From positions 1 through 22,543 of IMG/VR virus record IMGVR_UViG_3300043429_000350: 22,543 bases of DNA, one strand, 5' to 3'. The position numbers and the translations under genes are program-made. The notes beneath the pieces were generated by a model. That model had not been told where the DNA came from and did no database searches. It worked only from the letters and a program-made list of their open reading frames with translations. This DNA comes from a virus. Shown here one piece after another: positions 1 through 20,726 of this stretch (its first letter is position 1; every line of letters starts with the position of its first letter).

Positions 1-675
1 CTTGCTTCGTATGTCCACGCATACGAACAAAAAATGCAAATGAAACGTGAAGGCCTTTCAGATAAAGGTATCTGGACTGCCAAGAAACGTTATATCTTAA
101 ACGTATATAATAATGAAGGTGTCCAGTATGCTGAACCTAAGATGAAAGTCATGGGTTTAGAAATGGTTAAATCTTCTACACCAGCAATCATTCGTGAGAA
201 GATGAAACAAGCAATCAAACTTATGGTGAGTGGAACACAAGAAGATTTACATGAGTTCATAGATAACTTCCGTAAAGAATTTAATAAGTTGCCAGTTGAA
301 GATATTTCTTTCCCTCGTGGTTGTAATGGACTGGCCACTTATTATGATGCAGCAACGTTGTATAAGAAAGGCACACCGATTCATGTAAAGGGTGCAATAT
401 TATATAATCATTTCCTGAAACAAATGGATCTAACGAAAAAGTATCCATTAATTCAAGAAGGTGAAAAACTTAAATTCACTTATCTGAAATTACCAAATCA
501 TTTCAAAGATATGGTTATTTCTTTACCTAGTAGATTACCTGTTGAATTCAATTTACAGAATTACATAGATTACGACACACAGTTCGACAAGACATTTGTT
601 GAACCAATTAAAGTTGTATTGGATTGTATGGGTTGGACTACAGAGAAAAACTTTTCATTAGAGGACTTCTTTTAA
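1..675 (+). CDS. 43: DNA polymerase, family B (T4 gp43-like), C-terminal part
   Basis: This is the C-terminal part (225 codons) of the replicative DNA polymerase; the reading frame is open from base 1, so the 5' end with the exonuclease and most of the palm lies outside the window. The sequence KKRYILNVYNNEG, followed by YAEPKMKVMGLE and KSSTP, closely follows the end of the palm and start of the thumb of T4 gp43 as I remember it (KKRYAINVYDMEG, YAEP, MGMET, SSTP). The last residues, NFSLEDFF, correspond to the short hydrophobic tail with which T4 gp43 binds its sliding clamp gp45. The protein would act in the phage replisome with the helicase encoded downstream. The next gene starts two bases after the stop, so the two are likely co-transcribed and translationally coupled. 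The family assignment is firm; fidelity and exonuclease features cannot be judged from this part. Confidence 0.95.
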   Translation, partial: LASYVHAYEQKMQMKREGLSDKGIWTAKKRYILNVYNNEGVQYAEPKMKVMGLEMVKSSTPAIIREKMKQAIKLMVSGTQEDLHEFIDNFRKEFNKLPVEDISFPRGCNGLATYYDAATLYKKGTPIHVKGAILYNHFLKQMDLTKKYPLIQEGEKLKFTYLKLPNHFKDMVISLPSRLPVEFNLQNYIDYDTQFDKTFVEPIKVVLDCMGWTTEKNFSLEDFF

Positions 676-676
676 A

Positions 677-1738
677 ATGGTTTACTTGACATTTCTTTCC
701 GCACTACTACTCTCTGGTATTGCTGCATATTATTCTATCATAGGCCTTGCATCGATATTTGTCGGTGCATTTTGGCCTGTTGTGTTTATGGGTTCTAGTT
801 TAGAGTTTGCTAAAGTGGTTACAACATCTTGGCTATATAGAAACTGGAGAAAAATACCCCTTCTACTAAAGATATATCTTACCGTTGCTGTAGTAATTTT
901 AATGTTGATTACTTCAATGGGAATATTTGGTTACCTTTCCAAATCTCACTTAGAACAATCTGTCATGATTGGTCCTATTGCAGATAAGGTTGCCATGTAT
1001 GATGATAAAATAAAGACGTTAAAGGAGAATATAGATGCAAACAAGTTGGCAATTAAACAGCTTGATGCGGCTGTGGATCAGGTCATGGCACGAACGGAAG
1101 ACTCGAAGGGAGCTGAAAGATCGGTCCAAATACGCAAAGCTCAACAGAAAGAACGCAGTCGCCTTAATGATGAAATTGCGGGGTCGCAAAAAGAAATCGT
1201 TAAGATCACAGAAGAAAAAGCGCCGATCCAGAATGAGTTACGCAAGAGTGAGTCGGATTTTGGCCCGATTAAATATGTAGCCGAATTAATTTATGGTAGT
1301 AGTGATAGAGATATTATTGATAAGGCCGTTCGATTGGTAATTATTTTAATTATGCTTGTGTTTGACCCGCTAGCTGTGTTATTATTGATAGCAGGTAACA
1401 TGACAATGAAAGAACAGGAAGAGGAAGAAAAGAAAAAGAATCCACTTGATATCATAAAAGAAAGAGTGGAAGAAAGAATCTCTACCTTAAAAAAGAAACC
1501 TGAACCAGTAGAAGAAATAGTTCAGATTGAAAAAGAAAACATTACCAACATGGAAGAAGTTCCACAACGAAAAGTGGAAATATATCATGAACCTAATTAT
1601 GTTGAACCTGTGGAAACAAAATCACCTGGTGTATCAGTGAAAACAATTGAACCTAAGTATGACTATGAAGCAGCATTTGCTTTTAGAGAAAAAGAATCAG
1701 CACCATATGAAATACCAACATTTAAGGATAAAAAATGA
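677..1738 (+). CDS. Membrane protein with central coiled coil, between polymerase and uvsX
   Basis: A 353-residue protein of unknown function. It has hydrophobic segments at about residues 3-25, 26-45, 62-85 and 218-240. Between the third and fourth lies a charged, heptad-like stretch (about 105-195) that should form a coiled coil. After the last membrane segment comes a long acidic and lysine-rich tail (about 245-353) rich in E, K, P and V. The likely topology is a membrane-anchored coiled-coil hairpin with a soluble tail. I recall similar proteins at this position in marine T4-like phages, but no function is known to me. Its place inside the replication operon, one base after the polymerase stop and overlapping uvsX by ATGA, suggests expression with the replisome. 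It could tether replication complexes or phage DNA to the membrane; that is inference only. Confidence 0.8.
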   Translation: MVYLTFLSALLLSGIAAYYSIIGLASIFVGAFWPVVFMGSSLEFAKVVTTSWLYRNWRKIPLLLKIYLTVAVVILMLITSMGIFGYLSKSHLEQSVMIGPIADKVAMYDDKIKTLKENIDANKLAIKQLDAAVDQVMARTEDSKGAERSVQIRKAQQKERSRLNDEIAGSQKEIVKITEEKAPIQNELRKSESDFGPIKYVAELIYGSSDRDIIDKAVRLVIILIMLVFDPLAVLLLIAGNMTMKEQEEEEKKKNPLDIIKERVEERISTLKKKPEPVEEIVQIEKENITNMEEVPQRKVEIYHEPNYVEPVETKSPGVSVKTIEPKYDYEAAFAFREKESAPYEIPTFKDKK

Positions 1739-2802
1739 GTATACTTGACAAAATTAAAAAGAATAGTAGTATCAAAGAATCAGCTATTCTTTCTAAGTCT
1801 AAGTTCTTTACGGACAAAGACATGATCCCAACATCCATTCCTATTATTAATGTGGCCTTATCTGGTCGATTGGATGGCGGGTTGACACCTGGTCTTACAA
1901 TGTGGGCAGGTCCATCAAAACATTTTAAGACTGCCTTTTCACTTTTAATGGCGAAATCATATCTTGACAAATATCCTGAAGCAGCACTATTATTCTATGA
2001 CTCAGAGTTTGGCACTCCTCAGTCTTATTTTGATTCCTTTGGCATCGACACAGATCGTGTCCTTCATACTCCTCTTACTGATATTGAACAGTTAAAATTT
2101 GATGTAATGCAACAATTAACTAGTTTAGAACGAAATGATAAACTGATTATTGTTATCGATTCTATTGGTAACTTAGCATCTAAGAAAGAAGTTGATGATG
2201 CACTTGAAGGTAAATCTGTGGCTGACATGTCACGTGCTAAACAAGTTAAATCGTTATTCAGAATGGTAACACCACATCTGACTATGAAAGATATTCCTAT
2301 GATTGTTGTTAATCATACTTACAAAGAGATTGGTATGTTCCCCAAAGACATCGTTGGTGGTGGTACAGGTTCATACTATTCAGCAGATAACATTTTTATT
2401 CTTGGTCGTCAACAAGAGAAAGAAGGTACAGAAATTGTTGGCTATAATTTTATCATCAATGTCGAAAAATCTAGATATGTCAAAGAAAAGTCTAAGATAC
2501 CTGTTTCTGTATCTTTTGATGGTGGTATTAGTAAGTGGTCTGGTCTACTTGATATTGCACTCGAAAGTGGTCACGTAATTAAACCATCGAATGGTTGGTA
2601 TTCTAAACGTGATGAAGATGGTGTATATGAAGAAAAGAAATATCGTATCAAAGAAACAGACACAAAAGAGTTTTGGTTACCAATACTAAAACAAAAATCA
2701 TTCCAAGAATATATCGTAAACAAGTATCAAATCGCTTCTGGTAGTATTATTCAAAGTGATGTTGCTGAGGCCTTTGAAGTTGAAACTATGAATGGAACCT
2801 AA
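1735..2802 (+). CDS. uvsX: UvsX, RecA-like recombinase
   Basis: A 355-residue strand-exchange protein of the RecA superfamily, as in T4 UvsX. It forms filaments on single-stranded DNA and drives recombination-dependent replication and repair. The Walker A motif is GPSKHFKT (residues 59-66), the same variant as in T4 UvsX. Walker B is LIIVIDS (137-143), followed by IGNLASKKE. The block GGGTGSYYSADNIFILGRQQ and the following INVEKSRYVKEKSKIP and GGISKWSG are near-identical to T4 UvsX as I remember it. Length is close to the family norm (T4 about 390), with a shorter C-terminus. The start ATG overlaps the stop of the upstream gene (ATGA), typical of coupled translation. Partners such as UvsY and gp32 are not in the window. 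Confidence 0.97.
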   Translation: MSILDKIKKNSSIKESAILSKSKFFTDKDMIPTSIPIINVALSGRLDGGLTPGLTMWAGPSKHFKTAFSLLMAKSYLDKYPEAALLFYDSEFGTPQSYFDSFGIDTDRVLHTPLTDIEQLKFDVMQQLTSLERNDKLIIVIDSIGNLASKKEVDDALEGKSVADMSRAKQVKSLFRMVTPHLTMKDIPMIVVNHTYKEIGMFPKDIVGGGTGSYYSADNIFILGRQQEKEGTEIVGYNFIINVEKSRYVKEKSKIPVSVSFDGGISKWSGLLDIALESGHVIKPSNGWYSKRDEDGVYEEKKYRIKETDTKEFWLPILKQKSFQEYIVNKYQIASGSIIQSDVAEAFEVETMNGT

Positions 2803-3061: not shown

Positions 3062-3378
3062 CAGAAGGTGTAGATTATTGTTTCATCTATCCTAAAGATG
3101 ATGCACAAACTGTACATATTAAATTATTGGATGGTCCATATAAAGACACCACATTTAAGTATGGTAAGGTAAAGTTTGAAGAAAAAAATGAAGAAATGCA
3201 TTTACTTTTTGCATTTGATGTGTTAGAATCCACTATCAAACCTAAGAAGTTACAGAAGGATTTGGATTTTAAAAATTATATTGGTGATCTGTTGGTACAA
3301 TTAATGTCCAACAATATGGAACAGGAAATAATTGATGAGACTGGAACAAACGATACTAAAGAATCTGATCTACAATGA
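3058..3378 (+). CDS. Conserved hypothetical protein upstream of the helicase
   Basis: A 106-residue protein I do not recognise. The first 70 residues look like a small beta-rich fold (VHIKLLDGPYKDTTFKYGKVKFEE, with a second strand pair around MHLLFAFDVLES). A helical, acidic C-terminus follows (about 75-106). It has no signal peptide, membrane segment or cysteine cluster. The start is well supported: GAGGAAGGA lies upstream and the ATG overlaps the previous stop as ATGA. Its last 44 bases overlap the start of the helicase gene in another frame, so it is probably translationally coupled to gp41. A replisome accessory role is possible from context alone. Confidence 0.75.
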   Translation: MTEGVDYCFIYPKDDAQTVHIKLLDGPYKDTTFKYGKVKFEEKNEEMHLLFAFDVLESTIKPKKLQKDLDFKNYIGDLLVQLMSNNMEQEIIDETGTNDTKESDLQ

Positions 3379-4738
3379 AGAATATCTCAGGAAAGTATTA
3401 CCATTTTTAAAGGCTGAATATTTTTTAGATAGAATAGAAAGAACTCTGTTTAATGAAATATCATCATTCATATCTACGTACAACAGTACACCAACGATTG
3501 AAGCTGTTGTACTTGCCGTGCAAGAAAAGAAAAATCTTTCAGCTGACGAAGTTACGCAATGTGAAACATATCTACAAGAAATTGAAAAGACTTCAAAGGA
3601 TGAAACCAAAATCGCTTGGCTCATCGACAAATCCGAGGCATTTTGCCAAGAGAAAGCTGTTTATAATGCTGTCTTGGAAGCTATTTCTATTCTCGATGGA
3701 AAGAATAAAACACAAGATAAGGGTGCGATACCCCAGATATTGGCAGACTCACTGGCTGTAGGTTTCGACACAAACGTTGGCCACGATTACTTGGAAAACT
3801 CAGATGCACGATACGAATTTTACCACAGAAAAGAAGAACGAATACCGTTCGACCTGGAATACCTTAACAAGATTACAAAAGGTGGATTACCTAATAAGAC
3901 CCTTAATATTGCTTTGGCTGGGACTGGCGTTGGTAAGTCTCTTTTTATGTGTCACGTTGCCGCTGGTGCTATGTCACAAGGTCGTAACGTTCTCTATATC
4001 ACGATGGAAATGTCGGAAGAAAAGATTGCAGAACGAATAGATGCAAACCTTTTGAATGTAACTATTGATGAATTGGTTAATTTATCGAAAGATATGTATG
4101 ACAAGAAAGTTGAACGTGTAAGAAGCAAGACTACAGGTAAACTTATTATTAAAGAATATCCAACAGCCTCAGCATCGGCTGTTCACTTTAGGACTTTATT
4201 AAATGAACTTAATCTCAAACGTAGTTTTGTACCTGATATCATCTTTATTGATTATCTTAACATCTGTTGCTCTTCTCGTATTAAACCTGGGGCTTCTATT
4301 AATTCCTACACCTACGTTAAGGCAATTGCTGAGGAATTACGTGGACTTGCAGTTGAGTTCAACGTCCCAGTTGTTTCAGCAACGCAGACCACAAGAAGTG
4401 GTTTCACAAGCACAGATCCAGGACTCGAAGATACAAGTGAATCGTTCGGACTCCCTGCTACCGCCGATTTAATGTTTGCTTTGGTTTCATCTGAACAGAT
4501 GGAATCTATGAATCAGATTATGATTAAGCAGTTGAAGAATCGTTATAATGATCCGACAACCTTCAAACGTTTTACTCTTGGTATCGATAGAGCAAAGATG
4601 AGATTGTATGATGTTGAACAATCTGCACAAGATGGTATTGCTGATTCTGGCCAAGATGACAAACCTTTAAATTCATTTGGTGAACGTGAACGACAATCTA
4701 GTTTTGGTAAAAAATCTTTTAATGGGTTTAAAGTATGA
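3335..4738 (+). CDS. 41: Replicative DNA helicase, DnaB/T4 gp41 family
   Basis: A 467-residue hexameric 5'-3' helicase that unwinds the fork and works with primase and the clamp-loaded polymerase. A helical N-terminal domain (about 1-145) is followed by the RecA-like motor. Walker A is GTGVGKS (196-202), the DnaB motif 1a-like region reads NVLYITMEMSEEKIAERIDAN (about 218-238), and Walker B is DIIFIDYLN (301-309). The loop VPVVSATQTTRSGF follows. Length matches T4 gp41 (475). I chose ATG at 3335, preceded by AGGAA at a good distance; an adjacent TTG at 3332 would add only one residue. The C-terminus (about 430-467) is a disordered, Gly/Ser/Asp-rich tail ending in FGKKSFNGFKV, a plausible partner-binding tail. 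The gene overlaps its upstream neighbour by 44 bases and the next gene by ATGA. Confidence 0.95.
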   Translation: MRLEQTILKNLIYNEEYLRKVLPFLKAEYFLDRIERTLFNEISSFISTYNSTPTIEAVVLAVQEKKNLSADEVTQCETYLQEIEKTSKDETKIAWLIDKSEAFCQEKAVYNAVLEAISILDGKNKTQDKGAIPQILADSLAVGFDTNVGHDYLENSDARYEFYHRKEERIPFDLEYLNKITKGGLPNKTLNIALAGTGVGKSLFMCHVAAGAMSQGRNVLYITMEMSEEKIAERIDANLLNVTIDELVNLSKDMYDKKVERVRSKTTGKLIIKEYPTASASAVHFRTLLNELNLKRSFVPDIIFIDYLNICCSSRIKPGASINSYTYVKAIAEELRGLAVEFNVPVVSATQTTRSGFTSTDPGLEDTSESFGLPATADLMFALVSSEQMESMNQIMIKQLKNRYNDPTTFKRFTLGIDRAKMRLYDVEQSAQDGIADSGQDDKPLNSFGERERQSSFGKKSFNGFKV

Positions 4739-9427: not shown

Positions 9428-10269
9428 TTATTAGTGCCGTATCCGAATATGGTTACGACAAGATGAAGTATTGGGTAAACTCAATCAAACAAACTGGATT
9501 CAAGGGTATAATTGCAATTATAGCCTTTAATATGAAAGATGAAACGAAGAAGAAACTTGAAGAACAGGGTGTAACTGTTTATCTTGCTTCTCAGAATAGA
9601 AACAAAAATAATGATGGTTACTTATTCGTTGAAGGATTAACTTATCAAGTACCAATGCTCAGACATCATTTCTATTGGGCATTATTGAATCAACTCAAAG
9701 ACCAAGATATACGATATGTTATTTCAACCGATATATCTGATGTCGTATTTCAAGTGAATCCATCAACATGGCTTGAAAACAATCTTGGTGACAAAAAACT
9801 TAATTATGGTTGCGAAGGTTTAAAATATAAAGATGAGGCCTGGGGAAATCAAAATATGATGGATTGTTTTCCTCAACTTTATCAACACATGAAAGATAGG
9901 CCAATCTATAATGCCGGTTCAATGGCAGGTGAATTTAATACATTTAAAGACTTTTCATTGGCTGTTTCTTTGGCAATAAGTAATATACAAAATCCAACAC
10001 CAGATCAAGCTGGTGTTAATGTGATGTTATCTATTGAACCATATCTTTCATTAACCAAATTTAACGATCATGATGACAATTGGGCATGTGAATGTGGAAC
10101 TACAGTAGACCCCAACAAAATAAACACCTTTAGGCCTCATCTATTGAGTCCTGAACCTGTTTTTGATGGTGAGTATGTTTACACAAGTAAAGGTGAAAAA
10201 TATGTAATGGTGCATCAATATAATAGAGTACCGGATTGGAAAGATAAAATTGAAAGAAAATATGAATAA
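9424..10269 (+). CDS. Putative glycosyltransferase (GT-A-like)
   Basis: A protein of 281 residues from ATG 9424, or 284 from GTG 9415. The ATG forms an ATGA overlap with the upstream stop, while the GTG has GGAGAAG close upstream; I cannot decide. The N-terminus reads like a nucleotide-diphospho-sugar transferase (YDKMKYWVNSIKQTGFKGI). YVISTDISDVVFQ (about 98-110) is a likely acidic metal motif. YNAGSMAGEF and DQAGVNVML are typical of later GT-A motifs, and VHQYNRVP near the C-terminus supplies a histidine as in GT8-like enzymes. I cannot place it in a numbered family. It lies in the middle of the glycan operon, consistent with the assignment. Confidence 0.7.
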   Translation: MIISAVSEYGYDKMKYWVNSIKQTGFKGIIAIIAFNMKDETKKKLEEQGVTVYLASQNRNKNNDGYLFVEGLTYQVPMLRHHFYWALLNQLKDQDIRYVISTDISDVVFQVNPSTWLENNLGDKKLNYGCEGLKYKDEAWGNQNMMDCFPQLYQHMKDRPIYNAGSMAGEFNTFKDFSLAVSLAISNIQNPTPDQAGVNVMLSIEPYLSLTKFNDHDDNWACECGTTVDPNKINTFRPHLLSPEPVFDGEYVYTSKGEKYVMVHQYNRVPDWKDKIERKYE

Positions 10270-11083
10270 AGATATTTCAGTTGTCACAGCATTTTATGAT
10301 ATAGGTAGAGGAAATTTACCAAAGTCTAAACATGGACGTGAACTGCCATTCTATCAACATAGAAGTGTTGACACTTATTTTGAATTCTTTAGTAACTTAG
10401 CTAAACTACAAAATGAGATGGTGATATACACCACTCCAGATTTTGAAGATAGAGTTTTAACAATTCGAAAAGAAAATGGACTTGAAGAACTCACTAAAGT
10501 TGTAACTAGAGAATCGTATCTACCAACAGAATATGAACAAATAAAAGAACGTGTTCAAAAAACTATGGATGATCCTAATTATTATGATAAAGTCATTAAT
10601 CCACAATTAATAGAATATTGGCATGCTGATTATGTGTTGGTTAATATATTCAAGGCTTGGTATGTAACAGATGCTATCGAAAAGAATTTAATATCAAACG
10701 ACTTGACTGCATGGATCGATTTTGGTTACGTTCGTAATAACACTACGATACCTGCATCAAATCGTTGGACATATGATTTCAATAAAGAGAAAATACATTT
10801 CTTTAATCAACGTAATATTGATCCTAGACCAATAAATGACATAATATATACTGGAGATGTTTATATACAAGGTTGTCATATTGTTGCTGGCACAAAGAAA
10901 TGGTCATTACTGAAAGAACTAGTAATGGACAATGTAAATTTATTATTGTTACACAATTTGATTGATGATGACCAAACTCTTTTGTTGATGTCATTTCTCA
11001 CCAAACCCGATGAATTTGAATTGCATCCAGCAGATCCAAATGATTGGTTCAGAATTTTTAGAAAATATAATGATAACATATGA
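10262..11083 (+). CDS. HtrL/YibB-family glycosyltransferase-like protein
   Basis: A 273-residue protein resembling the HtrL_YibB family, found in LPS and surface-glycan loci. The N-terminal motif VVTAFYDIGRG (7-17) is the family hallmark, followed by an MVIYTT strand (53-58) and WIDFGYVRN (151-159), the probable acidic sugar-nucleotide motif. C-terminal sequences such as CHIVAGTKKW and DDQTLLL also fit. I chose ATG 10262; a TTG at 10250 would add four residues. The gene overlaps its upstream neighbour by eight bases and the next gene by ATGA. Family members are thought to be transferases, but the sugar is unknown. Confidence 0.8.
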   Translation: MNKDISVVTAFYDIGRGNLPKSKHGRELPFYQHRSVDTYFEFFSNLAKLQNEMVIYTTPDFEDRVLTIRKENGLEELTKVVTRESYLPTEYEQIKERVQKTMDDPNYYDKVINPQLIEYWHADYVLVNIFKAWYVTDAIEKNLISNDLTAWIDFGYVRNNTTIPASNRWTYDFNKEKIHFFNQRNIDPRPINDIIYTGDVYIQGCHIVAGTKKWSLLKELVMDNVNLLLLHNLIDDDQTLLLMSFLTKPDEFELHPADPNDWFRIFRKYNDNI

Positions 11084-11823
11084 ACATCGATATAGTATCT
11101 CCTAGAATCCATAATTTGGGTGATTTTGCTCATTGTTTACCTGCATTATCGGCCTTATATAAAAGGTTTGACAAGAAAATATCATTTACAATCTGTGATA
11201 GATTACAAAGATTTAAAGGTATCAGAGAACTACTATTGGAACAGGAAATGTTTTCTAATGTTTGGTTCTTACACGAAAAACAGTTCAACCCTATGAATTG
11301 TGTACTTATGGATGATACAGGAACAGAAGAAGGCAATCTCAATTCTCCTATTGTCGTTAGAAAATATCTAAACTTTTTAAATCACACATACAAATTAGAT
11401 TTAGAAAGTGATGATAACTTTGAATTACAAATACCAAAATATGATATCGATTACCACTCCGACAAACTTATTATTGGTGATAGATGGTCACCAAAAGATG
11501 CACCTGATGTGGATGAACGGAGATATTCCAATTTAATAGAAACATCTGAAATTATTCCACATAAAAAAGGTTTTTGTCTTGACTATACTAATGAATTATT
11601 GTATAATTGTTCGTTAATCAAATATAATACAAATGCATTTGTTACCACATTTACTGGTATTGCTGTACTTGCCGATCTTATGAAGAAAGATAGTTATATC
11701 TTGTGGGACGAAGATATGAGAAATTGGCAAGGTTGGGATATAGAACATGTATTTAAAATGCATTTCTATCAAGATAGGGAATCAAAACTAGTTTATTTAA
11801 AAGATTTTAAATATGATTATTAA
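11080..11823 (+). CDS. GT9-like (heptosyltransferase-like) protein
   Basis: A 247-residue protein that looks like a compact GT-B glycosyltransferase related to the ADP-heptose:LPS transferases. The opening IVSPRIHNLGDFAHCLPAL (5-23) has the GD...PAL pattern of the acceptor-binding start of family 9. The C-terminal part (FVTTFTGIAVLADLMKK, about 187-203) takes the place of the conserved donor-binding GDSGxxHLA region but lacks the classic residues. Catalysis is therefore uncertain. It is shorter than bacterial heptosyltransferases (about 320-350). It is followed by a second GT9-like gene that overlaps it by 11 bases, so the two may work in series or as a pair. Confidence 0.6.
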   Translation: MNIDIVSPRIHNLGDFAHCLPALSALYKRFDKKISFTICDRLQRFKGIRELLLEQEMFSNVWFLHEKQFNPMNCVLMDDTGTEEGNLNSPIVVRKYLNFLNHTYKLDLESDDNFELQIPKYDIDYHSDKLIIGDRWSPKDAPDVDERRYSNLIETSEIIPHKKGFCLDYTNELLYNCSLIKYNTNAFVTTFTGIAVLADLMKKDSYILWDEDMRNWQGWDIEHVFKMHFYQDRESKLVYLKDFKYDY

Positions 11824-12520
11824 TATTGAGCCACACAATTTCGGTGGACCACTCCGCAACGGAGATATTATTGCTGCACTGAATTTCTATGCTTGGTTGG
11901 CACCACAACATGGTGGTGATATTAAACTTCACATTCCAGATCGATCAATACATCAATCTGATTATATCATTAAATTTCGTAATTGGTTGAATGACAACGT
12001 TTCTTTCCTTTCCACCGATGCAGGAACGAATTCATTGAATGTGAATAATGTGAATCTTTGGGATTTTAGATCATTAACTGGTGATATACTATTACTAGAT
12101 TTTAATCGGCCAATGAAAAAGAAAATTGTAATTGCTCCATTGTTTGATGGTGCATATAACACATATAGAAACTGGTCCAATCCAATGTTAGATTCTATCG
12201 TTGAACATTACTCGAAAGATGAGTATAAGGATTATGAAAAGATTATTTGTGCAAAGAGTGATACACATACAACCTTCTATGATGGTTGGAAAAATAGTTA
12301 TGATTTTATTGAAAACATAGAACATATAGTTGATTGTAGTCACTATGTTGGTGGTGATACTGGAACATCACACTTTGCATCTGTCTTACCTAAGAAAGAG
12401 AAATTAAATTATTATTATGGATCAGTAGGACTATTACATACTACTCCTTTCTATGCGATGCAAGGAAAAGGAAATATAAACATGTTTCACAATAGTAATT
12501 GGAGATTAGATTTATTATGA
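11813..12520 (+). CDS. GT9-like (heptosyltransferase-like) protein, second copy
   Basis: A 235-residue GT-B-like protein. FGGPLRNGDIIAALNF (10-25) matches the GD-containing N-terminal loop of family 9 enzymes. VGGDTGTSHFASVL (179-192) is a good match to the donor-binding VGGDSGxxHLA motif, better kept than in the preceding gene. Between them KKKIVIAPL begins the second Rossmann domain. The protein is about a third shorter than bacterial LPS heptosyltransferases. The adjacent gene looks like a distant paralogue with the acceptor loop retained and the donor motif worn. Its stop overlaps the methyltransferase start as ATGA. Confidence 0.65.
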   Translation: MIINIEPHNFGGPLRNGDIIAALNFYAWLAPQHGGDIKLHIPDRSIHQSDYIIKFRNWLNDNVSFLSTDAGTNSLNVNNVNLWDFRSLTGDILLLDFNRPMKKKIVIAPLFDGAYNTYRNWSNPMLDSIVEHYSKDEYKDYEKIICAKSDTHTTFYDGWKNSYDFIENIEHIVDCSHYVGGDTGTSHFASVLPKKEKLNYYYGSVGLLHTTPFYAMQGKGNINMFHNSNWRLDLL

Positions 12521-13170
12521 GAATTTATAAAAAAATGTTTGGTGATATTGGTGGTTATTTGTATCAGGACAAAATGACAGGACCTATACCAGATTATTCT
12601 TCATCATATTCAAAACAAAGATATGATACTTATACAACAAATGATAGAATGTCTGAGTTGAGATTTAATTTGTTAACCAAAGTAATTAAAAACTTTAGTA
12701 GTGTTACCGACTTTGGTTATGGTAATGGTGCATTTCTACAACATTGTGTCAAGAACGGTAAGACAACCTACGGGTTTGATATATCGGATTATCCGACACC
12801 TATAGGTTCTCTAAAAATTGATAATGTAAATGATTATGAAGTTGATGTGGTAACTTTTTATGATTCACTTGAACATCTTCCAGAGATGGAATTAGTTCCT
12901 TTTCTCCGTGGTCTGAAAACAAAATACGTTTGTATTTCTGTACCTTGGTATCACGAAGAACAAGGAAACGAATGGTTTATGAATTGGAAGCACCGTAGAG
13001 AAAACGAACACTTACACCATTTTGATTCACATGGTTTGGCCAATTTACTTAACTCCTCCGATTATAAAGTTCTTTACTTGGGTAATTGTGAAGATGTTGT
13101 AAGAACTCCTGTTGATGGCCTACCCAATATATTAACTGTTATTGCAATCAAAAAGAATCGTAACACATGA
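12517..13170 (+). CDS. SAM-dependent methyltransferase (class I)
   Basis: A 217-residue methyltransferase with a Rossmann-like SAM fold. Motif I is VTDFGYGNGAFL (63-74), the acidic ribose-binding residue is in YGFDIS (85-90), and motif IV appears as TFYDSLEHLPE (113-123), typical of the Methyltransf_11/23 group. VCISVPWYHEEQ and HRRENEHLHHFD suit the later strands and substrate pocket. I chose ATG 12517, which overlaps the upstream stop (ATGA) and has GGAG upstream at a rather long distance; an in-frame TTG at 12499 would add six residues. In this cluster it most likely methylates a sugar residue of the glycan, but a protein or small-molecule target is not excluded. Confidence 0.8.
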   Translation: MRIYKKMFGDIGGYLYQDKMTGPIPDYSSSYSKQRYDTYTTNDRMSELRFNLLTKVIKNFSSVTDFGYGNGAFLQHCVKNGKTTYGFDISDYPTPIGSLKIDNVNDYEVDVVTFYDSLEHLPEMELVPFLRGLKTKYVCISVPWYHEEQGNEWFMNWKHRRENEHLHHFDSHGLANLLNSSDYKVLYLGNCEDVVRTPVDGLPNILTVIAIKKNRNT

Positions 13171-13847
13171 AAACACTTAGTATAACAGTTATTGATACTT
13201 TACACTATACACCAAGTATTAAAGCACTTAAAAAAACACTTGAAACTTTAGGTGATAAGATTACATCGGTTTATTGGTTTAGTGATATTCCTTTTCCTGA
13301 ACCTATTGATGTAGAAGTTTTTTGGATAAAAATACCAAGAATTAAAAGTTATAATGATGAATATGGTAATATTACATTAAAACTTTGTCCTGTTATTTGT
13401 ACTGAAGATTTTAATTTGATTATTCATTCTGATGGGTTTGCAGTCAACAAAGATGCATGGACTGATGAATTCTTTGAATATGATTATATTGGTGCAACAT
13501 GGCAAGACGGCCGTGTTGGTAATGGTGGTTTCTGTTTGAGGTCACAAAAACTGTATCAAGCATTAAATAAAATGAATGTCAATTTTGCTACAGAACAGTT
13601 TGGTGGTTTAATACATAATTCAGATTATCATGTATTTACAAAAGGTCAATATCTTATTCCTGAAGATAATGTTATTTGCAAAATACATAGAAATGAATTA
13701 GAAACAAAACACGGAATCAAATTTGCACCATCACACATTGCAAATAGATTCAGTGTAGAACTTAACTACAATCACGAATGGGTTGGAAAAAGTTTAGGGT
13801 TTCATGGTAAACATGGTATTGCGAAAAATTATGGAGTTGAATTATGA
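13167..13847 (+). CDS. DUF5672-family glycosyltransferase-like protein
   Basis: A 226-residue protein matching the DUF5672 pattern as I remember it. FNLIIHSDGF (82-91) carries the acidic position usually written as QtDsf. YDYIGATW (105-112) and VGNGGFCLRS (117-126) are the family core, and E..F..DYHVF follows at about 142-157. Proteins with this core occur in glycan loci of bacteria, phages and giant viruses and are thought to be GT-A transferases, without much biochemistry. The gene is coupled on both sides by ATGA overlaps. No membrane segment is present, so it should act on a cytoplasmic acceptor. Confidence 0.75.
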   Translation: MKTLSITVIDTLHYTPSIKALKKTLETLGDKITSVYWFSDIPFPEPIDVEVFWIKIPRIKSYNDEYGNITLKLCPVICTEDFNLIIHSDGFAVNKDAWTDEFFEYDYIGATWQDGRVGNGGFCLRSQKLYQALNKMNVNFATEQFGGLIHNSDYHVFTKGQYLIPEDNVICKIHRNELETKHGIKFAPSHIANRFSVELNYNHEWVGKSLGFHGKHGIAKNYGVEL

Positions 13848-14575
13848 AAGATATTAAAATTTACATTCATGCAATGGACTTACCTAACGGTAAACAAATT
13901 TTAGAAGAACAAGTAGAATTACTTGAAAGAACAGGATTAATTGATGCTGCTGCAGAAATTAATTTGATGATGCATTTCAACAAAGAAAATTTCAAGTGGC
14001 TTGAAGATAGATGGCAAAACAGGCCGAATGTAAAATTCCATTTATTTGATGAAAGTTATAAAGAGTGGTTTGAAGGAACTACCATACAAGGAATACAAGA
14101 ACGGGCTCATGCATCAGAAGATGAGTATTATGTTCTTTGCATGACATGTAAAGGAATTTCTCATGCACCAGGTGGCCATCAAAATTGGCGTCACTATATG
14201 CAATACTTCACTGTTGAGAAATGGAAAGAATGTGTAGAAAAACTGAATGAAGGTTATGACACCGTAGGTGCAGCATACTTACCTGATCCTCCTTATGGAT
14301 TCTATCCAGGTACTTTCTTTTGGGCAAAAGCATCATACATCCGTAAATGTCATAGACTCTTACCACCACCTGAGGCAAATTTCAAACCGCAATTTGAAGG
14401 ACAACCGCATCATAGATTTGATATGGAGTGTTGGATTGGCAGTGGAAAACCTAATTGGTATGAAATGCATTTAGGTCCTAGTGGTCGATGGTATTCACCT
14501 CCATCATATTATAGGACAGATGTTCAGGAAGTAACACAAAAAGAAGGTGTTTGGACTTATAAAGTAGAGATGTAA
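13844..14575 (+). CDS. Putative glycosyltransferase-like protein (TCKGISH...NWRxYM family)
   Basis: A 243-residue protein that I link to an unnamed transferase-like family common in viruses and marine bacteria. YYVLCMTCKGISHA (95-108) corresponds to the family pattern ending in HTKG(I/V)S, here with Thr-Cys-Lys. NWRHYMQYFTVEKW (114-127) and YPGTFFWAKASYI (154-166) follow in the expected order. The last block resembles the product-side loop of GT-A enzymes. The first 60 residues look like a nucleotide-binding start (IKIYIHAMDLPNGKQILEEQ). No function has been shown as far as I know. It closes the run of transferase genes before the dehydrase. Confidence 0.65.
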   Translation: MKDIKIYIHAMDLPNGKQILEEQVELLERTGLIDAAAEINLMMHFNKENFKWLEDRWQNRPNVKFHLFDESYKEWFEGTTIQGIQERAHASEDEYYVLCMTCKGISHAPGGHQNWRHYMQYFTVEKWKECVEKLNEGYDTVGAAYLPDPPYGFYPGTFFWAKASYIRKCHRLLPPPEANFKPQFEGQPHHRFDMECWIGSGKPNWYEMHLGPSGRWYSPPSYYRTDVQEVTQKEGVWTYKVEM

Positions 14576-14599
14576 AATTCACATTAAAGGATTTTTTAA

Positions 14600-15886
14600 A
14601 TGAACACGAATGATTTGATTAATGAACTGGCAGTTACAGTTCAACCAAAGTATGTTAAAAAATATGATGATTACAAAGAAGGCGACTTCATTCAATATTC
14701 CGGTCAATTGTGGGATGAAAATGAAATGCGAGTTGCACTTGATGCCTTACTGAATGGTAAATGGGTAACATCAGGTGAAAAGGTCGCACAATTTCAAAAT
14801 AAATTCAGTAAGAAATTTGATGTGAAGTATTCACACATGGTCAATTCTGGTAGTTCGGCCAACCTTGTGATGATTACTGCATTAAAACATTATTTAAAAT
14901 GGCAGGATGGTGATGAGATTATCGTATCACCTGTAGGATTCCCAACCACAATCGCACCTATCGTTCAAAATGGAATGAAGGCCGTATTCATCGATATTGA
15001 ATTGAATACACTCAATTTCGATATTGATCTAATTGAATCTAAGATTACACCTAGAACCAGAGGTATATTTGTTTCTCCCGTACTTGGTAATCCGCCTGAC
15101 ATGGACAAATTGAAAGATATTTGTGAAAGACACAACATTCTTTTGATTGGTGATAACTGTGATTCATTAGGCACACGTTGGGATGGTAAGTTGCTAACAG
15201 ATTATTATTACTGTTGGTCTACATCATTTTATCCGGCGCACCATATCTCTACAGGTGAGGGTGGAATGGTTTGCTCTAATGATGAAGCGTACATGAATAT
15301 TGCACGTAGTGTATCATGGTGGGGACGTGATTGTTACTGTGTTGGTTCAAACAATTTATTGGAATGTGGAACTTGTGGTAATCGTTTTGATGAATGGTTG
15401 GCCAACTATAATGGTACAATCGATCATAAGTATGTTTTCACAACTATGGGTTATAATTTAAAACCTTTAGACTTACAGGGTGCTATTGGTATAGAACAAC
15501 TGAAGAAGTTTGAATACATTGATGAAAAGCGTCGTGAATATAAGGACGTTGTACAAAAATCGATTCGGAATCACATCAAACAAGTAAGAGTAATTGATGC
15601 ATTACCAAAAGGTGATCCTTCTTGGTTTGGTGTTCCTATTTACTGTGAATCACAACAAGTAAAAGAAAAACTGGTTGCACATTTTGAAGCAAACAAGATT
15701 CAAACTCGTAATTACTTTAGTGGTAATATATTGTTGCATCCTGGTTATCAACACCTAGATGATTATAGAAATTATCCAAATTCAAACCTCGCACTCAGTA
15801 ATGTATTCTTTGTTGGATGCTCACCATTATGGAACTATAAAATTCTAAATTATATCGACAAGGTATGTGAAAAATGGAACGATTAA
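14600..15886 (+). CDS. RfbH/E1-type PLP sugar 3-dehydrase with Fe-S cysteine motif
   Basis: A 428-residue member of the DegT/DnrJ/EryC1/StrS fold, specifically the 3-dehydrase branch (RfbH/AscC, E1), which removes the 3-hydroxyl of a CDP-4-keto-6-deoxyhexose. MVNSGSSAN (80-88) binds the PLP phosphate. At the usual PLP-lysine position the sequence is SFYPAHHISTGEGG (209-222), so H214 replaces lysine as in E1 and ColD. Cysteines C187, C245 and C247 reproduce the E1 spacing C-X57-C-X1-C. The fourth, C259 in CGNRF, sits 11 residues on instead of 7 because of a short insertion that adds C256. This indicates a [2Fe-2S] cluster. DHKYVFTTMGYNLKPLDLQ also matches RfbH. The electron-donating reductase (E3/RfbI) is not in the window. 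AAAGGA precedes the ATG by about nine bases. Confidence 0.88.
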   Translation: MNTNDLINELAVTVQPKYVKKYDDYKEGDFIQYSGQLWDENEMRVALDALLNGKWVTSGEKVAQFQNKFSKKFDVKYSHMVNSGSSANLVMITALKHYLKWQDGDEIIVSPVGFPTTIAPIVQNGMKAVFIDIELNTLNFDIDLIESKITPRTRGIFVSPVLGNPPDMDKLKDICERHNILLIGDNCDSLGTRWDGKLLTDYYYCWSTSFYPAHHISTGEGGMVCSNDEAYMNIARSVSWWGRDCYCVGSNNLLECGTCGNRFDEWLANYNGTIDHKYVFTTMGYNLKPLDLQGAIGIEQLKKFEYIDEKRREYKDVVQKSIRNHIKQVRVIDALPKGDPSWFGVPIYCESQQVKEKLVAHFEANKIQTRNYFSGNILLHPGYQHLDDYRNYPNSNLALSNVFFVGCSPLWNYKILNYIDKVCEKWND

Positions 15887-16710
15887 TTAATGTCTTTGGT
15901 AAAGGCTTTGTTGGTACTCGATATTGTGAATTAACTGGCCACACAAAAATTGTTAATGCTCGTGATGACTATGAAGTGACACCTGGTGTCACCGATATAG
16001 TTTATTTCATTTCAACTGTTGATAATTATAATGTGCATACAGACCTACACATCGACATTGATACAAACTTATCTGTATTAATGGATGTGTTGAAATCTTT
16101 TAGAGAGAATTCACCTGATGCAGTCTTTAATTTCATAAGTTCGTGGTTCGTTTACGGTAACGTTGAATTACCAGCCAAAGAAGATTCACATTGTGATCCT
16201 AAAGGTTTCTATTCAATTACAAAAAGAACCGCAGAACAATTACTGATATCATATTGTGAAACTTTTGGATTAAAATATCGCATATTAAGATTAGGTAATG
16301 TTCTAGGTACAACCGATAATAAAGTATCTAAGAAGAAGAACGCCTTACAATACATGATTAATGAAGTTAAACAAGGTAATGATATTGACCTGTATGATAA
16401 CGGAATGGTTTATAGAGATTACTCCCATGTTGATGATATAGTTCGTGCAATCAATATTGTCATTGAAAGTGGTGAAGTCGATGACATCTACAATGTTGGC
16501 AGTGGAGAACCAATTTACATAAAGGATGCGATGGAATATGCAGTCAAGGCCTCAGGTTCGACCTCGAAATTGAATAGTATTCCTCCAGCCGAGTTTCATA
16601 ATGTAGTCCAGACCAAAAACATGGTCTTGGACATTTCCAAGATCAAAAACCTTGGATTTACACCAAAGTATAATTTCTACAATATTGTCGATAGTTTATT
16701 GTATAAATAA
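15874..16710 (+). CDS. NAD(P)-dependent sugar-nucleotide reductase/epimerase (extended SDR)
   Basis: A 278-residue extended SDR. GKGFVG (9-14) is the dinucleotide motif, S89/S90 lie in NFISSWFVYG (86-95), and Y113-x3-K117 (YSITK) is the catalytic pair. RLGNVLG (139-145) and YRDYSHVDDIVRAI are standard for nucleotide-sugar epimerases and reductases. It overlaps the RfbH-like gene by 13 bases. In bacteria the product of that dehydrase is reduced at C4 by an SDR of about this size (paratose or abequose synthase, RfbS/RfbJ). I infer the same pairing here; a 4-epimerase is the main alternative. It is the last gene of the glycan cluster, and its stop codon overlaps a late-promoter box. Confidence 0.8.
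   Translation: MERLINVFGKGFVGTRYCELTGHTKIVNARDDYEVTPGVTDIVYFISTVDNYNVHTDLHIDIDTNLSVLMDVLKSFRENSPDAVFNFISSWFVYGNVELPAKEDSHCDPKGFYSITKRTAEQLLISYCETFGLKYRILRLGNVLGTTDNKVSKKKNALQYMINEVKQGNDIDLYDNGMVYRDYSHVDDIVRAINIVIESGEVDDIYNVGSGEPIYIKDAMEYAVKASGSTSKLNSIPPAEFHNVVQTKNMVLDISKIKNLGFTPKYNFYNIVDSLLYK
16702..16709 (+). promoter_or_regulatory. T4-type late promoter (TATAAATA)
   Basis: TATAAATA is an exact match to the T4 late-promoter -10 box recognised by the gp55 sigma-like factor with gp33 and the gp45 clamp. It overlaps the stop of the last glycan gene and lies 44 bases before the ATG at 16754. RNA would begin near 16714-16717, leaving a leader of about 40 bases that carries AAGGAA as ribosome binding site. 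No sigma70-like -35 box is evident, as expected for this class. It sits exactly where the gene content changes to capsid-targeted proteins, which supports a real late unit. Confidence 0.7.
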
Positions 16711-16753: not shown

Positions 16754-17929
16754 ATGTTATCGTTTATTAAGTTTCTCGGAGAAGAAACGGAAGGTGCTAA
16801 ACTCAAACACATCACCCATGCAGAGGATCGTCCTCTACAAAAGGGTGGTGAGGGTTTTACACATGCCGTTGGTGCATTAAATCAGGCTCATGAACAGATG
16901 AAGTCTGGTGGCCACAGTTCTGCACTCACCATGAAATACGACGGTTCACCTTCTATTGTATTCGGACATCACCCCAAAACAGGTAAATTCTTTGTTGCAT
17001 CCAAATCTGCATTTAATAAGACACCTAAACTAAATTACACAGAATCAGACATCGATAAACATCATGGTCACGCACCTGGTCTGGTAAGTAAATTAAAAGA
17101 CGCTTTAGAACACTTACCAAAAGTTGCACCTAAAAAAGGTGTATATCAAGGTGACCTAATGTTCTCAGGTGACGATAAAAAAGAAACCAAACATGGAGTT
17201 TCTTTTACACCCAACACAATTACCTATTCCGCCAAGGGTGAAATGGGAGACAAGATTCGTAAGGCCAAATTAGGTGTTATTGTACATACTCAGTATCATG
17301 GTGATGATATTACATCAATGTCGGCTGATTCTCATCCAGATATTCACAACTTCAAACAACATAATGATGTGTGGCATCAATCAGCTGAACATGATACATC
17401 TAAGATAAACTACCCTGAAAAAGATCAACAGGAATATCAAAGTCACATCGATGCAGCCAAGAAGATACATGATGGTAAACATGGTGACACCATGTATAGT
17501 GTAACTGAACCACATCAAGGTGAAAGTGGTCATCTAGAAACCTATATCAATCACACTGTAAGAACCGATGAGAAACCTACTGCAAAAGGTTTAATCAAAC
17601 ATATTGAGGGTAAATACAAGAAGGCCGCAATAAAGTTAAAAACGCCTGCTGCACAAGGACGTAAAACTGCTGAAGCACAACAACATACAGACTATATTAA
17701 ATATCACAGTGAACATTATGATAATTTACTGAAAATGCATAATCATTTACAACAAGCGAAAGACATACTTGTTAAAAATTTAGAAAAACACACAGGCGGT
17801 TTGGAACATCACATAGATAATAAACCAACAGGTCCGGAAGGATTCGTTGTTAATCATGGTGGTGAACCTACGAAGTTGGTTAATCGTAAAGAATTCGCTA
17901 AAGCAAACCTTTTAAAAGTTAGAAAATGA
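16754..17929 (+). CDS. Ligase-fold nucleotidyltransferase-like protein with capsid-targeting N-terminus (DUF6267-like)
   Basis: A 391-residue protein. Its first ten residues, MLSFIKFLGE, fit the T4 capsid targeting pattern, with [LI]-x-E at 8-10 as a prohead-protease site. The rest follows the order of motifs in ATP-dependent DNA/RNA ligases and capping enzymes. KYDGSPSIVFG (61-71) is motif I with K61 as candidate nucleotide-bearing lysine. GVYQGDLMF (129-137) resembles motif III, EGFVVNHGG (362-370) motif IV, and TKLVNRK (373-379) motif V. It appears related to phage proteins labelled DUF6267, by memory. A large His-rich insert lies between III and IV. I start at ATG 16754, which has AAGGAA five bases upstream; a GTG at 16727 would bury the targeting peptide. 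Overlap with the next gene is ATGA. Enzymatic activity is inferred. Confidence 0.75.
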   Translation: MLSFIKFLGEETEGAKLKHITHAEDRPLQKGGEGFTHAVGALNQAHEQMKSGGHSSALTMKYDGSPSIVFGHHPKTGKFFVASKSAFNKTPKLNYTESDIDKHHGHAPGLVSKLKDALEHLPKVAPKKGVYQGDLMFSGDDKKETKHGVSFTPNTITYSAKGEMGDKIRKAKLGVIVHTQYHGDDITSMSADSHPDIHNFKQHNDVWHQSAEHDTSKINYPEKDQQEYQSHIDAAKKIHDGKHGDTMYSVTEPHQGESGHLETYINHTVRTDEKPTAKGLIKHIEGKYKKAAIKLKTPAAQGRKTAEAQQHTDYIKYHSEHYDNLLKMHNHLQQAKDILVKNLEKHTGGLEHHIDNKPTGPEGFVVNHGGEPTKLVNRKEFAKANLLKVRK

Positions 17930-19710
17930 GATCATTTTTAGAAGTAATTAAAGAAGAAAAACAGGGTGAAAATCACCACGTTATGACCTTTGGTCGAATG
18001 AATCCACCAACGACTGGTCATTTAAAGTTGATTGATAAAGTGCATGAAATTGCAAAGAAGCATAATGCTGGCCATACAGTATTCACTTCTCATTCGCAAG
18101 ATTCTAAAAAGAATCCATTATCTGCTGCACAAAAAGTCAAACATTTAAAACGTTATGCACCAGGTACTAACTTTAAAGCATCATCAAAAGAACATCCTAC
18201 GTTCTTACATGCAGCTACAAATTTACATAAGAGTGGTGTAACACACCTACACATGGTCGTTGGTTCTGATCGTGTGAAAGAGATGAAAGAGAAGTTACAC
18301 AAATATAATGGAACACATGAGGGTGCATTATATCACTTCAAACATATTACAGTACATTCTGCTGGTCATCGTGATCCAGATGCAGAAGGAACATCTGGTA
18401 TGTCTGGTACCAAGATGCGTGAACACGCCAAGAATAAAGATTTGAAATCATTTAGAGGTGGTGTACCGTCTCATGTATCAGATACTCATGCAAAAGAATT
18501 AATGCATGATACTCGTAAGGGTATGGGTCTACATGAATCACATTATCGTGGTATGTTCAAGGCCATATTTGTTACTGGTGGACCTGGTTCAGGTAAAGAT
18601 GTTGTATTGCGTGAAGCAATTGCAGAAGCAAGAGCTGTCGAACTAAATTCTGTACAGGCCATGGATTATCTGAATGACAAACAAAGATTATCTGAAAAGA
18701 CAAATGATTATCGTAGAGAAGCAATTCGTAATCGTTCACCATTAATTATTAATGGACCTGCTGATAACCAAGAATCAATACTTAGAATCAAGGAAGAATT
18801 GGAAGAACTTGGATATGATACATTGATGGTATTTGTTGATACCACAAATGAGGCAAGTAGAGATAGAAACGAAAAACTAACAAAGATGATTGCTGAAGGT
18901 GTTAGACAAGATAAGTGGAATCAAGCTCAACAAAGTAAAGAATCTTATAATAAAGTCTTTGAGAATTTCATTCATTTTGATAATAGTGCATCTTTAGAAG
19001 ATATTGAAGAAACTATTACTGACACCTATCAAACGATAAATACATTTATAGAAGGTAAAGATTTTAATGAAATATCATATTCTTGGTTACAAAACCATGA
19101 TATGTTAAATACAATTGGAACTATTAAGGAAAATGAAAATGTTAAGCCGTCTTTTAAATTTATTCAAAAGCTCAACGAAAAGCGACAAGCATCCATTGGA
19201 GTTTACAGAAAAAACAGCTCAGTTGAGAAAGCCGACAGTCCAGCCGACATCAAGCAAGACAGTCGACCAGGAGACCCAAGTGCAGACGACATTAAGTGGG
19301 ACGGAAACAAAAAACGTGGTGGGTACACCTTCAGAACCTACACCGAAGGCCAAGATCAAAAAGTCTCCAACTTCCAAAAAGACAAAGAAACAATAAAGAA
19401 GAAAAGATATAGTGATTCTCCCACACCAAATGCAAGGTTGAGAAACACAACAGGTCTAGGACCAGAATTTGATACACGCCAGCAGGGAACAGTATACCCT
19501 ATGTCCGGATTAGGCGATGTAACCTACAGAGAACAAAAAGAGTTTAAGAGTTTCAGAAAAGTCAAAGAAGCTATTGATGATCCAGGTGCAAATGACATGG
19601 GTGTTGGTGGTGTTCTTGGTGGTTCTATGAACAAAGAACCTATGCAGACTTATGCAAATCAAGATAAGAATGTTGAAGTAGAAACACCTAAGAAAAAGAA
19701 AAAGAAATGA
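17926..19710 (+). CDS. Capsid-targeted nucleotidyltransferase-kinase fusion protein
   Basis: A 594-residue multidomain protein. MRSFLEVIKE (1-10) fits the capsid targeting pattern with I-K-E at 8-10. Domain 1 (about 17-195) is a cytidylyltransferase/NMN adenylyltransferase-like fold with TFGRMNPPTTGH (21-32, T-x-G-H signature) and MSGTKMREH (159-167, the second nucleotide-binding signature). Domain 2 (about 208-370) is a P-loop kinase-like domain with FVTGGPGSGKD (215-225), followed by a helical lid region (RDRNEKLTKMIAEG). The order recalls NadR, but the sequence is distant and the substrate unknown. The tail (about 400-594) is disordered and includes modules such as GPEFDTRQQGTVYPMSGLG and VGGVLGGSMNKEP, which I recall from other marine phages. 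Bases 19170-19390 within the tail are richer in G+C than the flanks. It overlaps both neighbours by ATGA. Confidence 0.75.
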   Translation: MRSFLEVIKEEKQGENHHVMTFGRMNPPTTGHLKLIDKVHEIAKKHNAGHTVFTSHSQDSKKNPLSAAQKVKHLKRYAPGTNFKASSKEHPTFLHAATNLHKSGVTHLHMVVGSDRVKEMKEKLHKYNGTHEGALYHFKHITVHSAGHRDPDAEGTSGMSGTKMREHAKNKDLKSFRGGVPSHVSDTHAKELMHDTRKGMGLHESHYRGMFKAIFVTGGPGSGKDVVLREAIAEARAVELNSVQAMDYLNDKQRLSEKTNDYRREAIRNRSPLIINGPADNQESILRIKEELEELGYDTLMVFVDTTNEASRDRNEKLTKMIAEGVRQDKWNQAQQSKESYNKVFENFIHFDNSASLEDIEETITDTYQTINTFIEGKDFNEISYSWLQNHDMLNTIGTIKENENVKPSFKFIQKLNEKRQASIGVYRKNSSVEKADSPADIKQDSRPGDPSADDIKWDGNKKRGGYTFRTYTEGQDQKVSNFQKDKETIKKKRYSDSPTPNARLRNTTGLGPEFDTRQQGTVYPMSGLGDVTYREQKEFKSFRKVKEAIDDPGANDMGVGGVLGGSMNKEPMQTYANQDKNVEVETPKKKKKK

Positions 19711-20231
19711 AAAGTTTCAAACAGTTTTTAAATGAAAAAGGTCGTTGCTGGCCAGGACATAAACCTGTTCCCGGAAAAAAACCATATTCACCTGGTAGTT
19801 GTGTTAAAGAAGATCATGTTGAAAAACTTGAAGCAGGTTTAAAAAAGTTGGATAATACTGATTATGATACTATAGATAGATTGATGAAAAGAATATCTAA
19901 GGATCATGAAGTTAGTCCAAAAGAATTACATAACGATTTTAAATCTAAACATGGAAAAACACCAGATGATTGGATTAAATCTAAGCAAAAATCAGAAATA
20001 AAAGAAGATTTACGTAAGTGGTTTGCTCAAAAATGGGTTCGTATGGACACAAAAGGCAATATTAAAGGCCAATGCGCTCGTGAACCTGGAGAAGGTAAGC
20101 CTAAATGTTTACCACAATCTAAAGCACATGCTTTAGGTAAAGAAGGTAGAGCATCAGCAGCTCAGAGAAAACGTAGAGAAGATCCAAATCCAGAACGTAG
20201 AGGTTCACCAATAAATGTTAGGACAAAGTAA
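19707..20231 (+). CDS. Small basic mosaic protein with capsid-targeting N-terminus
   Basis: A 174-residue, very basic protein. MKSFKQFLNE (1-10) is the best match in the window to the T4 capsid targeting peptide. Three small modules follow: a Cys-containing segment with CWPGHKPVPGKKPYSPGSC (14-32); a helical region with DYDTIDRLMKRISK and HGKTPDDWIK (about 52-91); and, after a second I-K-E site (98-100), a Cys/basic module with DLRKWFAQKWVRMD, QCAREPGEGKPKC and RKRREDPN (101-160). I recall each module in other proteins of marine phages or viruses, in different combinations. The high positive charge suits DNA binding in the head, as for T4 internal proteins. Overlap with the previous gene is ATGA. 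Confidence 0.75.
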   Translation: MKSFKQFLNEKGRCWPGHKPVPGKKPYSPGSCVKEDHVEKLEAGLKKLDNTDYDTIDRLMKRISKDHEVSPKELHNDFKSKHGKTPDDWIKSKQKSEIKEDLRKWFAQKWVRMDTKGNIKGQCAREPGEGKPKCLPQSKAHALGKEGRASAAQRKRREDPNPERRGSPINVRTK

Positions 20232-20726
20232 ATGAAAACATTTAAACAGTTTTTAGATGAATCTGAAACTTTAGAAGAAAAAAATACACCAACAAGTCCT
20301 GAGAAATGGGCTAGAGCAAAAGCTGCAGCTAAGTCAAAGTTTGCAGTTTATCCTTCAGCCTATGCTAATGCTTGGGCTTCAAAGAAATATAAATCTATGG
20401 GTGGTGGATGGAAATCAGTCAGCGAAGAAAACGAAGAAATTGAACTCGATGAAGTTGCTGCATGGCAACGTAAAGAAGGTAAATCTGAATCTGGTGGATT
20501 AAACCGTAAAGGTATTGAATCTTACCGTAGAGAAAATCCAGGTTCTAAGTTATCGATGGCAGTTACAACAAAACCATCTAAACTAAAGGCAGGTTCTAAA
20601 GCAGCTAATAGAAGAAAATCATTTTGTGCTAGAATGACCGGTATGAAGAAAAGACTAACATCTGCGGCCACTGCTCGTGATCCAGATTCAAGAATTAATA
20701 AATCACTACGTAAGTGGAATTGCTAA
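20232..20726 (+). CDS. Small basic mosaic protein with capsid-targeting N-terminus
   Basis: A 164-residue basic protein. MKTFKQFLDE (1-10) closely resembles MKTYQEFIAE of T4 internal proteins and has the L-D-E cleavage site at 8-10. Module 1 (about 22-60) contains PEKWARAKAAAKSKFAVYPS and ANAWASKKYKSMGGGW. An acidic linker EENEEIELDE (65-74) follows, ending in a second L-D-E site. Module 2 (75-164) contains AWQRKEGKSESGGLN, RKSFCARMTGMKK and a C-terminal SLRKWNC, a type I remember as a recurrent phage domain (possibly DUF6321). The gene begins directly after the previous stop. Cleavage at both sites would release two basic domains. Confidence 0.75.
   Translation: MKTFKQFLDESETLEEKNTPTSPEKWARAKAAAKSKFAVYPSAYANAWASKKYKSMGGGWKSVSEENEEIELDEVAAWQRKEGKSESGGLNRKGIESYRRENPGSKLSMAVTTKPSKLKAGSKAANRRKSFCARMTGMKKRLTSAATARDPDSRINKSLRKWNC

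Follow-up and report, generated by a model that had tools for sequence, protein, structure and literature searches.

A T4-type capsid targeting sequence probably marks four consecutive genes of an uncultured aquatic phage

The internal proteins IPII and IPIII of phage T4 start with the capsid targeting sequence (CTS) MKTYQEFIAE (Mullaney and Black; reviewed in PMC9026906), and mutagenesis of IPIII showed that residues 4 and 7 govern targeting and residues 8 and 10 processing (PMC9026906). The same review remarked that further basic proteins of T-even phages have CTS-like starts. The capsid-targeting signal as such is thus an already known T4 device. In phiKZ and SPN3US, ejection proteins are also targeted to the head by propeptides and a gp21-related protease is present, but most propeptides are longer than 100 residues and the cleavage motif is S/A-x-E (PMC5694885). 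Here, we analyzed an IMG/VR fragment of 22,543 bases (IMGVR_UViG_3300043429_000350) from an uncultured T4-like water phage, in the following called the window, in which four consecutive genes (genes 1–4; Table 1) begin with similar ten-residue peptides, the tags. With a probability of about 85%, these ten residues are a T4-type CTS, which binds the prohead core, is followed by a cut of a gp21-type protease after residue 10, and lets the protein exit with the DNA.

An earlier note on this DNA had proposed a sorting signal from the N-termini of the genes at 16754, 17926, 19707, and 20232, and all four were found exactly as read there. F4 is present in all four tags and F7 in three, while gene 2 carries V7; [LI]xE stands at residues 8–10 in each of them. 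The pattern M.[ST][FY]..[FYVIL][LIV].E matched 4 of the 230 open ATGs in the window, all of them the starts of the tagged genes, and the rest of the window thereby yielded no further protein with this start. At internal positions, the core pattern occurred with p=3.75e-5, corresponding to ~0.001 expected matches over ~28 genes (Poisson P ~5e-14). The start sites are credible because the ATGs of genes 2 and 3 overlap the stop codon of the preceding gene (ATGA), the ATG of gene 4 directly follows a TAA stop, and AGAAGGA precedes the ATG of gene 1. For gene 1, an alternative GTG start nine codons upstream is possible; ATG 16754 is kept in relatives.

The tags resemble the CTS of IPII and IPIII in that they have ten residues at the same position, with aromatic residues at 4 and 7, L/I at residue 8, and E10, in the unrelated cargo behind one tag, and, in relatives, in an S77 protease together with an LxE site in gp23. 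They differ by F4 in place of Y4 of T4, by their occurrence in aquatic T4-like phages, and by a cargo including enzymes of ~390–600 amino acids (aa) in a nucleotide-enzyme block; cleavage after residue 10 is here a likely event. Applied to the whole T4 genome, the strict pattern gave exactly three matches, namely ipII, ipIII, and gp61.1. The hypothetical protein gp61.1 has 54 residues, starts with MKTFKEFIKE, and is Gly-rich in its remainder (L107:267-431; T4 18966-19130, minus strand). Since similar small Gly-rich tagged proteins are encoded in other contigs (L013:14491-14685, L223, L204, L168, L226), gp61.1 may, judged from its sequence, be an overlooked internal protein of T4.

A search of IMG/VR with gene 2 yielded 35 relatives. 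The homologs of gene 1 were picked by homology alone, with the tag unused in selection, and provided 17 distinct tags. Among these, M1, F4, F7, and E10 are invariant, residue 8 is L or I, and residue 3 is S or T; positions 2, 5, 6, and 9 are variable and codons differ synonymously. The invariant or restricted residues 4, 7, 8, and 10 match the targeting and processing positions of T4, which supports a sorting signal. The tags of gene 2 orthologs are looser, with F4 in 20/20, E10 in 18/20, and mixed residues 7–8 (residue 8 mostly V, I, or L), and several orthologs carry LVE at 7–9 or VxE at 8–10. Thus, the exact [LI]xE placement described in the earlier note holds for the window and often fails in the orthologs of gene 2. 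Tagged proteins in relatives further comprise orthologs of gene 3 (L020, L021, L023, L034, L127), DUF6321-like proteins comparable to gene 4 (L010, L016, L018, L024, and other contigs), a HAD-like protein with an FDMDEVL start (L011), and further unrelated proteins; per related contig, only two to four genes match the strict pattern. Longer contigs sharing these tagged genes are G003, G006, and G011; all three encode gp21 (PF03420), and their gp23 proteins have LNE/A or LNE/L at the LTE/A site of T4 (the slash marks the known or predicted cleavage position). The idea that genes 1 and 2 are tagged throughout the cyanophages was rejected, since in P-HM1, S-CAM1, S-CREM2, and S-SM1 the DUF6267 proteins lack the tag, as do the short cytidyltransferases in P-HM1 and S-CAM1.

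To obtain the breadth of the tag, IMG/VR was scanned with a DNA pattern for the stricter form MK[ST]FK[QE]F.xE, which itself required E10. At least 120 environmental phage contigs carried this tag, compared with none for a scrambled pattern of the same composition, and nearly all of the matches listed are at genuine gene starts, with an in-frame stop a short distance upstream. In 257 Gb of cellular genomes, 13 matches were obtained, some plainly due to chance. Two contigs of alphaproteobacterial metagenome-assembled genomes (L229:1557, L235:2125) encode similar small proteins starting with MKRFKEFISEGSYPFW and MKTFKQFLNEGSYPLW and are possibly phage contigs binned with bacteria. At least one T4 marker (gp21, gp23, gp20, or T4 UvsX) was found in 27 of 50 tagged contigs, and gp21 in 15–16 of them, where 13.4 would be expected if all 50 were fragments of T4-like genomes of 170 kb. 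The sole contig of at least 52 kb without a marker among the 50 (G051) has a doubtful start (L190), with an in-frame stop 121 codons upstream.

Among the matches listed, ~50 unrelated clusters of cargo stand behind the tag. One 15-member cluster consists of S-adenosylmethionine (SAM) lyases (PF23780; E=5.9e-16 and 2.4e-17 for two members), encoded for example at L136:1441-2151 and L128:1921-2421 and on 13 more of these contigs; such a tagged SAM lyase is likely a packaged anti-restriction enzyme. Tagged ADP-ribosyltransferase-like proteins matched PF18760 (E=9.7e-24) and, below the cut-off, PF03496 (E=4.8e-4). Those at L176:6037-6813 and L225:1723-2589 are functional analogs of T4 Alt. Nucleotidyltransferases, a methyltransferase-like protein, and a DPBB lytic-transglycosylase-like protein were also found with the tag, and for many cargo proteins Pfam gave no match. 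A second cluster like that of the window, with four tagged and mutually unrelated genes within 3 kb, is located at L166:6505-9422.

Published mass spectrometry of cultured relatives places tagged proteins in virions, according to the tables and passages on virion proteins in three reports. In S-CREM2, the detected proteins include a SAM hydrolase (MKDFDSFLEE), a kinase (MKRFDAFLTE), a cytidylyltransferase (MKNFSSFLTE), and ORF136 (MQTFSMFFSE) (PMC10665884, Table 3). There, M..F..F[LIVMF].E matched 4/52 detected vs 0/167 undetected proteins (p=0.003), the numbers being small and the pattern wider at residue 8 and without [ST] at residue 3. The DUF6267 homolog of S-CREM2, a member of the gene 1 family, is untagged and not in this virion list, which is the expected contrast. 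The nicotinamide mononucleotide (NMN) adenylyltransferase (NMNAT) detected in S-SCSM1 virions (ORF91) starts with MKSFLQFLKE (PMC9602691) and the cytidyltransferase detected in S-SM1 virions (SSM1_190) with MKKFSAFLNE/A (PMC3037559). Tagged homologs of gene 2 are accordingly reported from virions of all three phages, and with NMNATs, a SAM hydrolase, and a kinase as virion enzymes the tag resembles a general label that addresses proteins for carriage into the next host. Virion carriage is discussed in these papers, and the tag is not mentioned in the passages concerned (PMC3037559, PMC9602691, PMC10665884). The Cas9-like virion protein ORF12 of S-CREM2 (L245:1-2336) has LRFASFMAE/A off-position at residues 17–25, with a CTG codon at the L.

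Besides the width of the S-CREM2 test pattern and its small numbers, several observations weigh against the tags being a T4-type CTS. Orthologs of gene 2 often have no [LI]xE at residues 8–10 (MKSFLDLVQE, MKSFLELTEE, MKSFLQRLEDE), so that processing there may differ or fail. The S77 prohead protease gp21 was not found in the 22.5-kb window, a fragment without recognized head genes; as these are missing, this phage by itself does not allow the tags to be claimed as a T4-type CTS in every respect. According to the same virion tables and passages, most virion proteins of S-CREM2 with unknown function are untagged, ORF30 of S-SCSM1 (MKTFKQFMSE) is tagged and not annotated as a virion protein, and the proteomes report that a protein is in the virion, but give neither its N-terminus nor its location within the head nor its injection. 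Finally, T4 IPI and Alt, which carry other propeptides, escape the strict pattern; picking ipII, ipIII, and gp61.1, this pattern is specific but incomplete.

The tag could also be read as a packaging signal that is kept on, docking the proteins to scaffold or capsid, with the [LI]xE-like end only as part of an amphipathic helix. The orthologs of gene 2 keep F4 and mostly E10 while residues 7–8 vary, some having S8, T8, or D10, and in T4 D10 permits targeting and blocks processing (PMC9026906). We consider a permanently retained tag unlikely, though, since a hydrophobic residue 8 and E10 occur in all gene 1 homologs and in most tagged cargo proteins of the scan (at least 120), and since relatives have retained both gp21 and the LxE site of gp23. 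As the scan pattern demanded E10, only the homology-selected set is unbiased for this residue. Much less probable is that the tag docks the proteins to some other partner, for example replisome or sliding clamp, and brings nucleotide enzymes to replication in this way. In HTVC008M and Melnitz-1, homologs of genes 1 and 2 do lie near the genes for DNA polymerase, UvsX, and helicase; the tag, however, also precedes SAM lyases, ADP-ribosyltransferases, the DPBB lytic-transglycosylase-like protein, and short Gly-rich peptides, tagged enzymes are present in virions as far as the published lists report them, and clamp motifs are not known to need E10. Docking to clamp or replisome was rejected because this range of cargo does not fit. 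Similar starts by chance, from amphipathic composition, or from copied 5′ ends have hardly any probability left: tags 3 and 4, identical at 26 of 30 nucleotides (nt) with only 11 matching positions in the next 30 nt, point to a recent tag duplication, but the remaining pairs share 16–19 of 30 nt, amino acids are kept while codons vary, and internal background, scrambled control, and homolog conservation refute chance as the main cause. Copying of a single DNA segment was rejected as a general origin, as tags 3 and 4 alone look recently copied.

The reading as a T4-type CTS is in turn supported by the conserved positions, the gp21 and gp23 site in relatives, the variety of cargo, and the tagged homologs in virions, and capsid targeting of tagged proteins is supported on these grounds. 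In the proposed mechanism, F4 and F7 (L, V, or I at residue 7 in gene 2) with the surrounding residues would bind the prohead core, and the tagged protein would be built into the prohead ahead of DNA entry. A gp21-type protease would then cut after [LI]xE at residue 10 and free the mature protein, which would remain in the head and exit with the DNA. For this very phage, we infer packaging of the four proteins. Injection into the host is plausible, and a role of the cargo in counter-defense or nicotinamide adenine dinucleotide (NAD) metabolism is conceivable as a hypothesis. T4 Alt, an injected ADP-ribosyltransferase, and IPI, an injected inhibitor of GmrSD, offer a functional analogy, as both are loaded into the head so as to act immediately; in family scans, neither showed homology to the window cargo.

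The cargo of the window would comprise an NMNAT/kinase-like enzyme, a possible ligase-like DUF6267 enzyme, and two small basic-rich proteins. Gene 1 homologs share the invariant motifs K61-x-D63-G64 (KxDG motif I) and E362-G363-x-V365 (EGxxV-type motif IV), which suggest a nucleotidyl ligase-like enzyme. The structure model of gene 1 is confident from residue 21 on (mean predicted local distance difference test score 83), with the tag at very low confidence. Its fold matches are weak and not significant (best E=0.56, the best ones being tRNA ligases), no sequence match was found in the PDB, and a firm ligase identity was therefore not assigned, although the motifs fit. The predicted architecture of gene 2, taken in part from its model, is an NMNAT/NadR-like nucleotidyltransferase, then a P-loop domain, and finally a disordered tail. 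The nucleotidyltransferase fold is indicated by PF01467 (E=1.3e-6), an FGRMNPPTTGH motif, and Foldseek matches to ATP sulfurylase, NadR, NadD, and FAD synthetase; the P-loop GGPGSGK is invariant, and this region is modeled at middling confidence. The earlier note had called the cargo proteins unrelated to each other, which is correct by sequence and needs qualification, as genes 1 and 2 match separate regions of shared PHROG profiles, and so do genes 3 and 4 (phrog_455, phrog_727). Fused forms of genes 1 and 2 and of genes 3 and 4 therefore probably exist in some other phages, while in the window set each separate protein has its own tag.

The window contig was placed among T4-like phages because of its UvsX-like recombinase (Table 1). 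Within the replication block, a protein encoded at 4735-5838 matches DruA/DUF4338 of the Druantia defense system (Pfam E=6e-8, PADLOC E=2.5e-9). The helicase region is separated from the tagged genes by a glycan cassette of ~8.8 kb (7941-16710), which contains glycosyltransferase, epimerase, methyltransferase, and DegT aminotransferase genes.

Table 1. Features of the window with coordinates (all numbered from its first base); a slash in a tag follows residue 10.
Feature	Position	Strand	Remarks
T4-type DNA polymerase, C-terminal part	34..675	+	phrog_262 E=3.8e-85, profile positions 638-851 of 856
UvsX-like recombinase	1735..2802	+	PF21134 E=1.3e-17, RecA E=1.5e-10
DnaB/gp41-like helicase, T4-like replication block	3332..4738	+	DnaB_C E=1.9e-21
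Gene 1, 391 aa, DUF6267 (PF19782)	16754..17929	+	possible nucleotidyltransferase/ligase-like enzyme
Tag of gene 1, MLSFIKFLGE/E	16754..16783	+	
Gene 2, 594 aa, NMN adenylyltransferase/cytidylyltransferase-like + P-loop kinase-like domain + disordered tail	17926..19710	+	
Tag of gene 2, MRSFLEVIKE/E	17926..17955	+	overlaps gene 1 stop
Gene 3, 174 aa, C-terminal half basic	19707..20231	+	phrog_10346/727/23735
Tag of gene 3, MKSFKQFLNE/K	19707..19736	+	overlaps gene 2 stop
Gene 4, 164 aa, basic DUF6321 protein (PF19846)	20232..20726	+	
Tag of gene 4, MKTFKQFLDE/S	20232..20261	+	26/30 nt same as tag 3

The occurrence of the same tag on SAM lyases, ADP-ribosyltransferases, kinases, and many unknown proteins points to an exchangeable address label for effectors of the first minute. 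On balance, we favor, with considerable reserve, the wider view that one ten-residue code is an exchangeable packaging system for much of the aquatic T4-like phages, in which gaining the tag would lead to delivery with the DNA, and swapped SAM lyases, ADP-ribosyltransferases, NAD enzymes, kinases, and perhaps a Cas9-like nuclease would serve as injected tools for counter-defense or takeover. No prior report of the tag in aquatic or marine phages was found in the open-licence literature, a scope excluding most subscription papers; the breadth of the tag in aquatic phages, its presence on enzymes, and its agreement with virion proteomes already published appear unreported. Proteomics is usually needed to learn which proteins a phage brings into its host, and most phages from the environment cannot be cultured. 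A tag that predicted head cargo would explain the SAM hydrolase, the NMNAT-like enzymes, and the kinase in purified cyanophage virions. It would also allow injected effectors to be listed from sequence alone, among them many proteins of unknown function.

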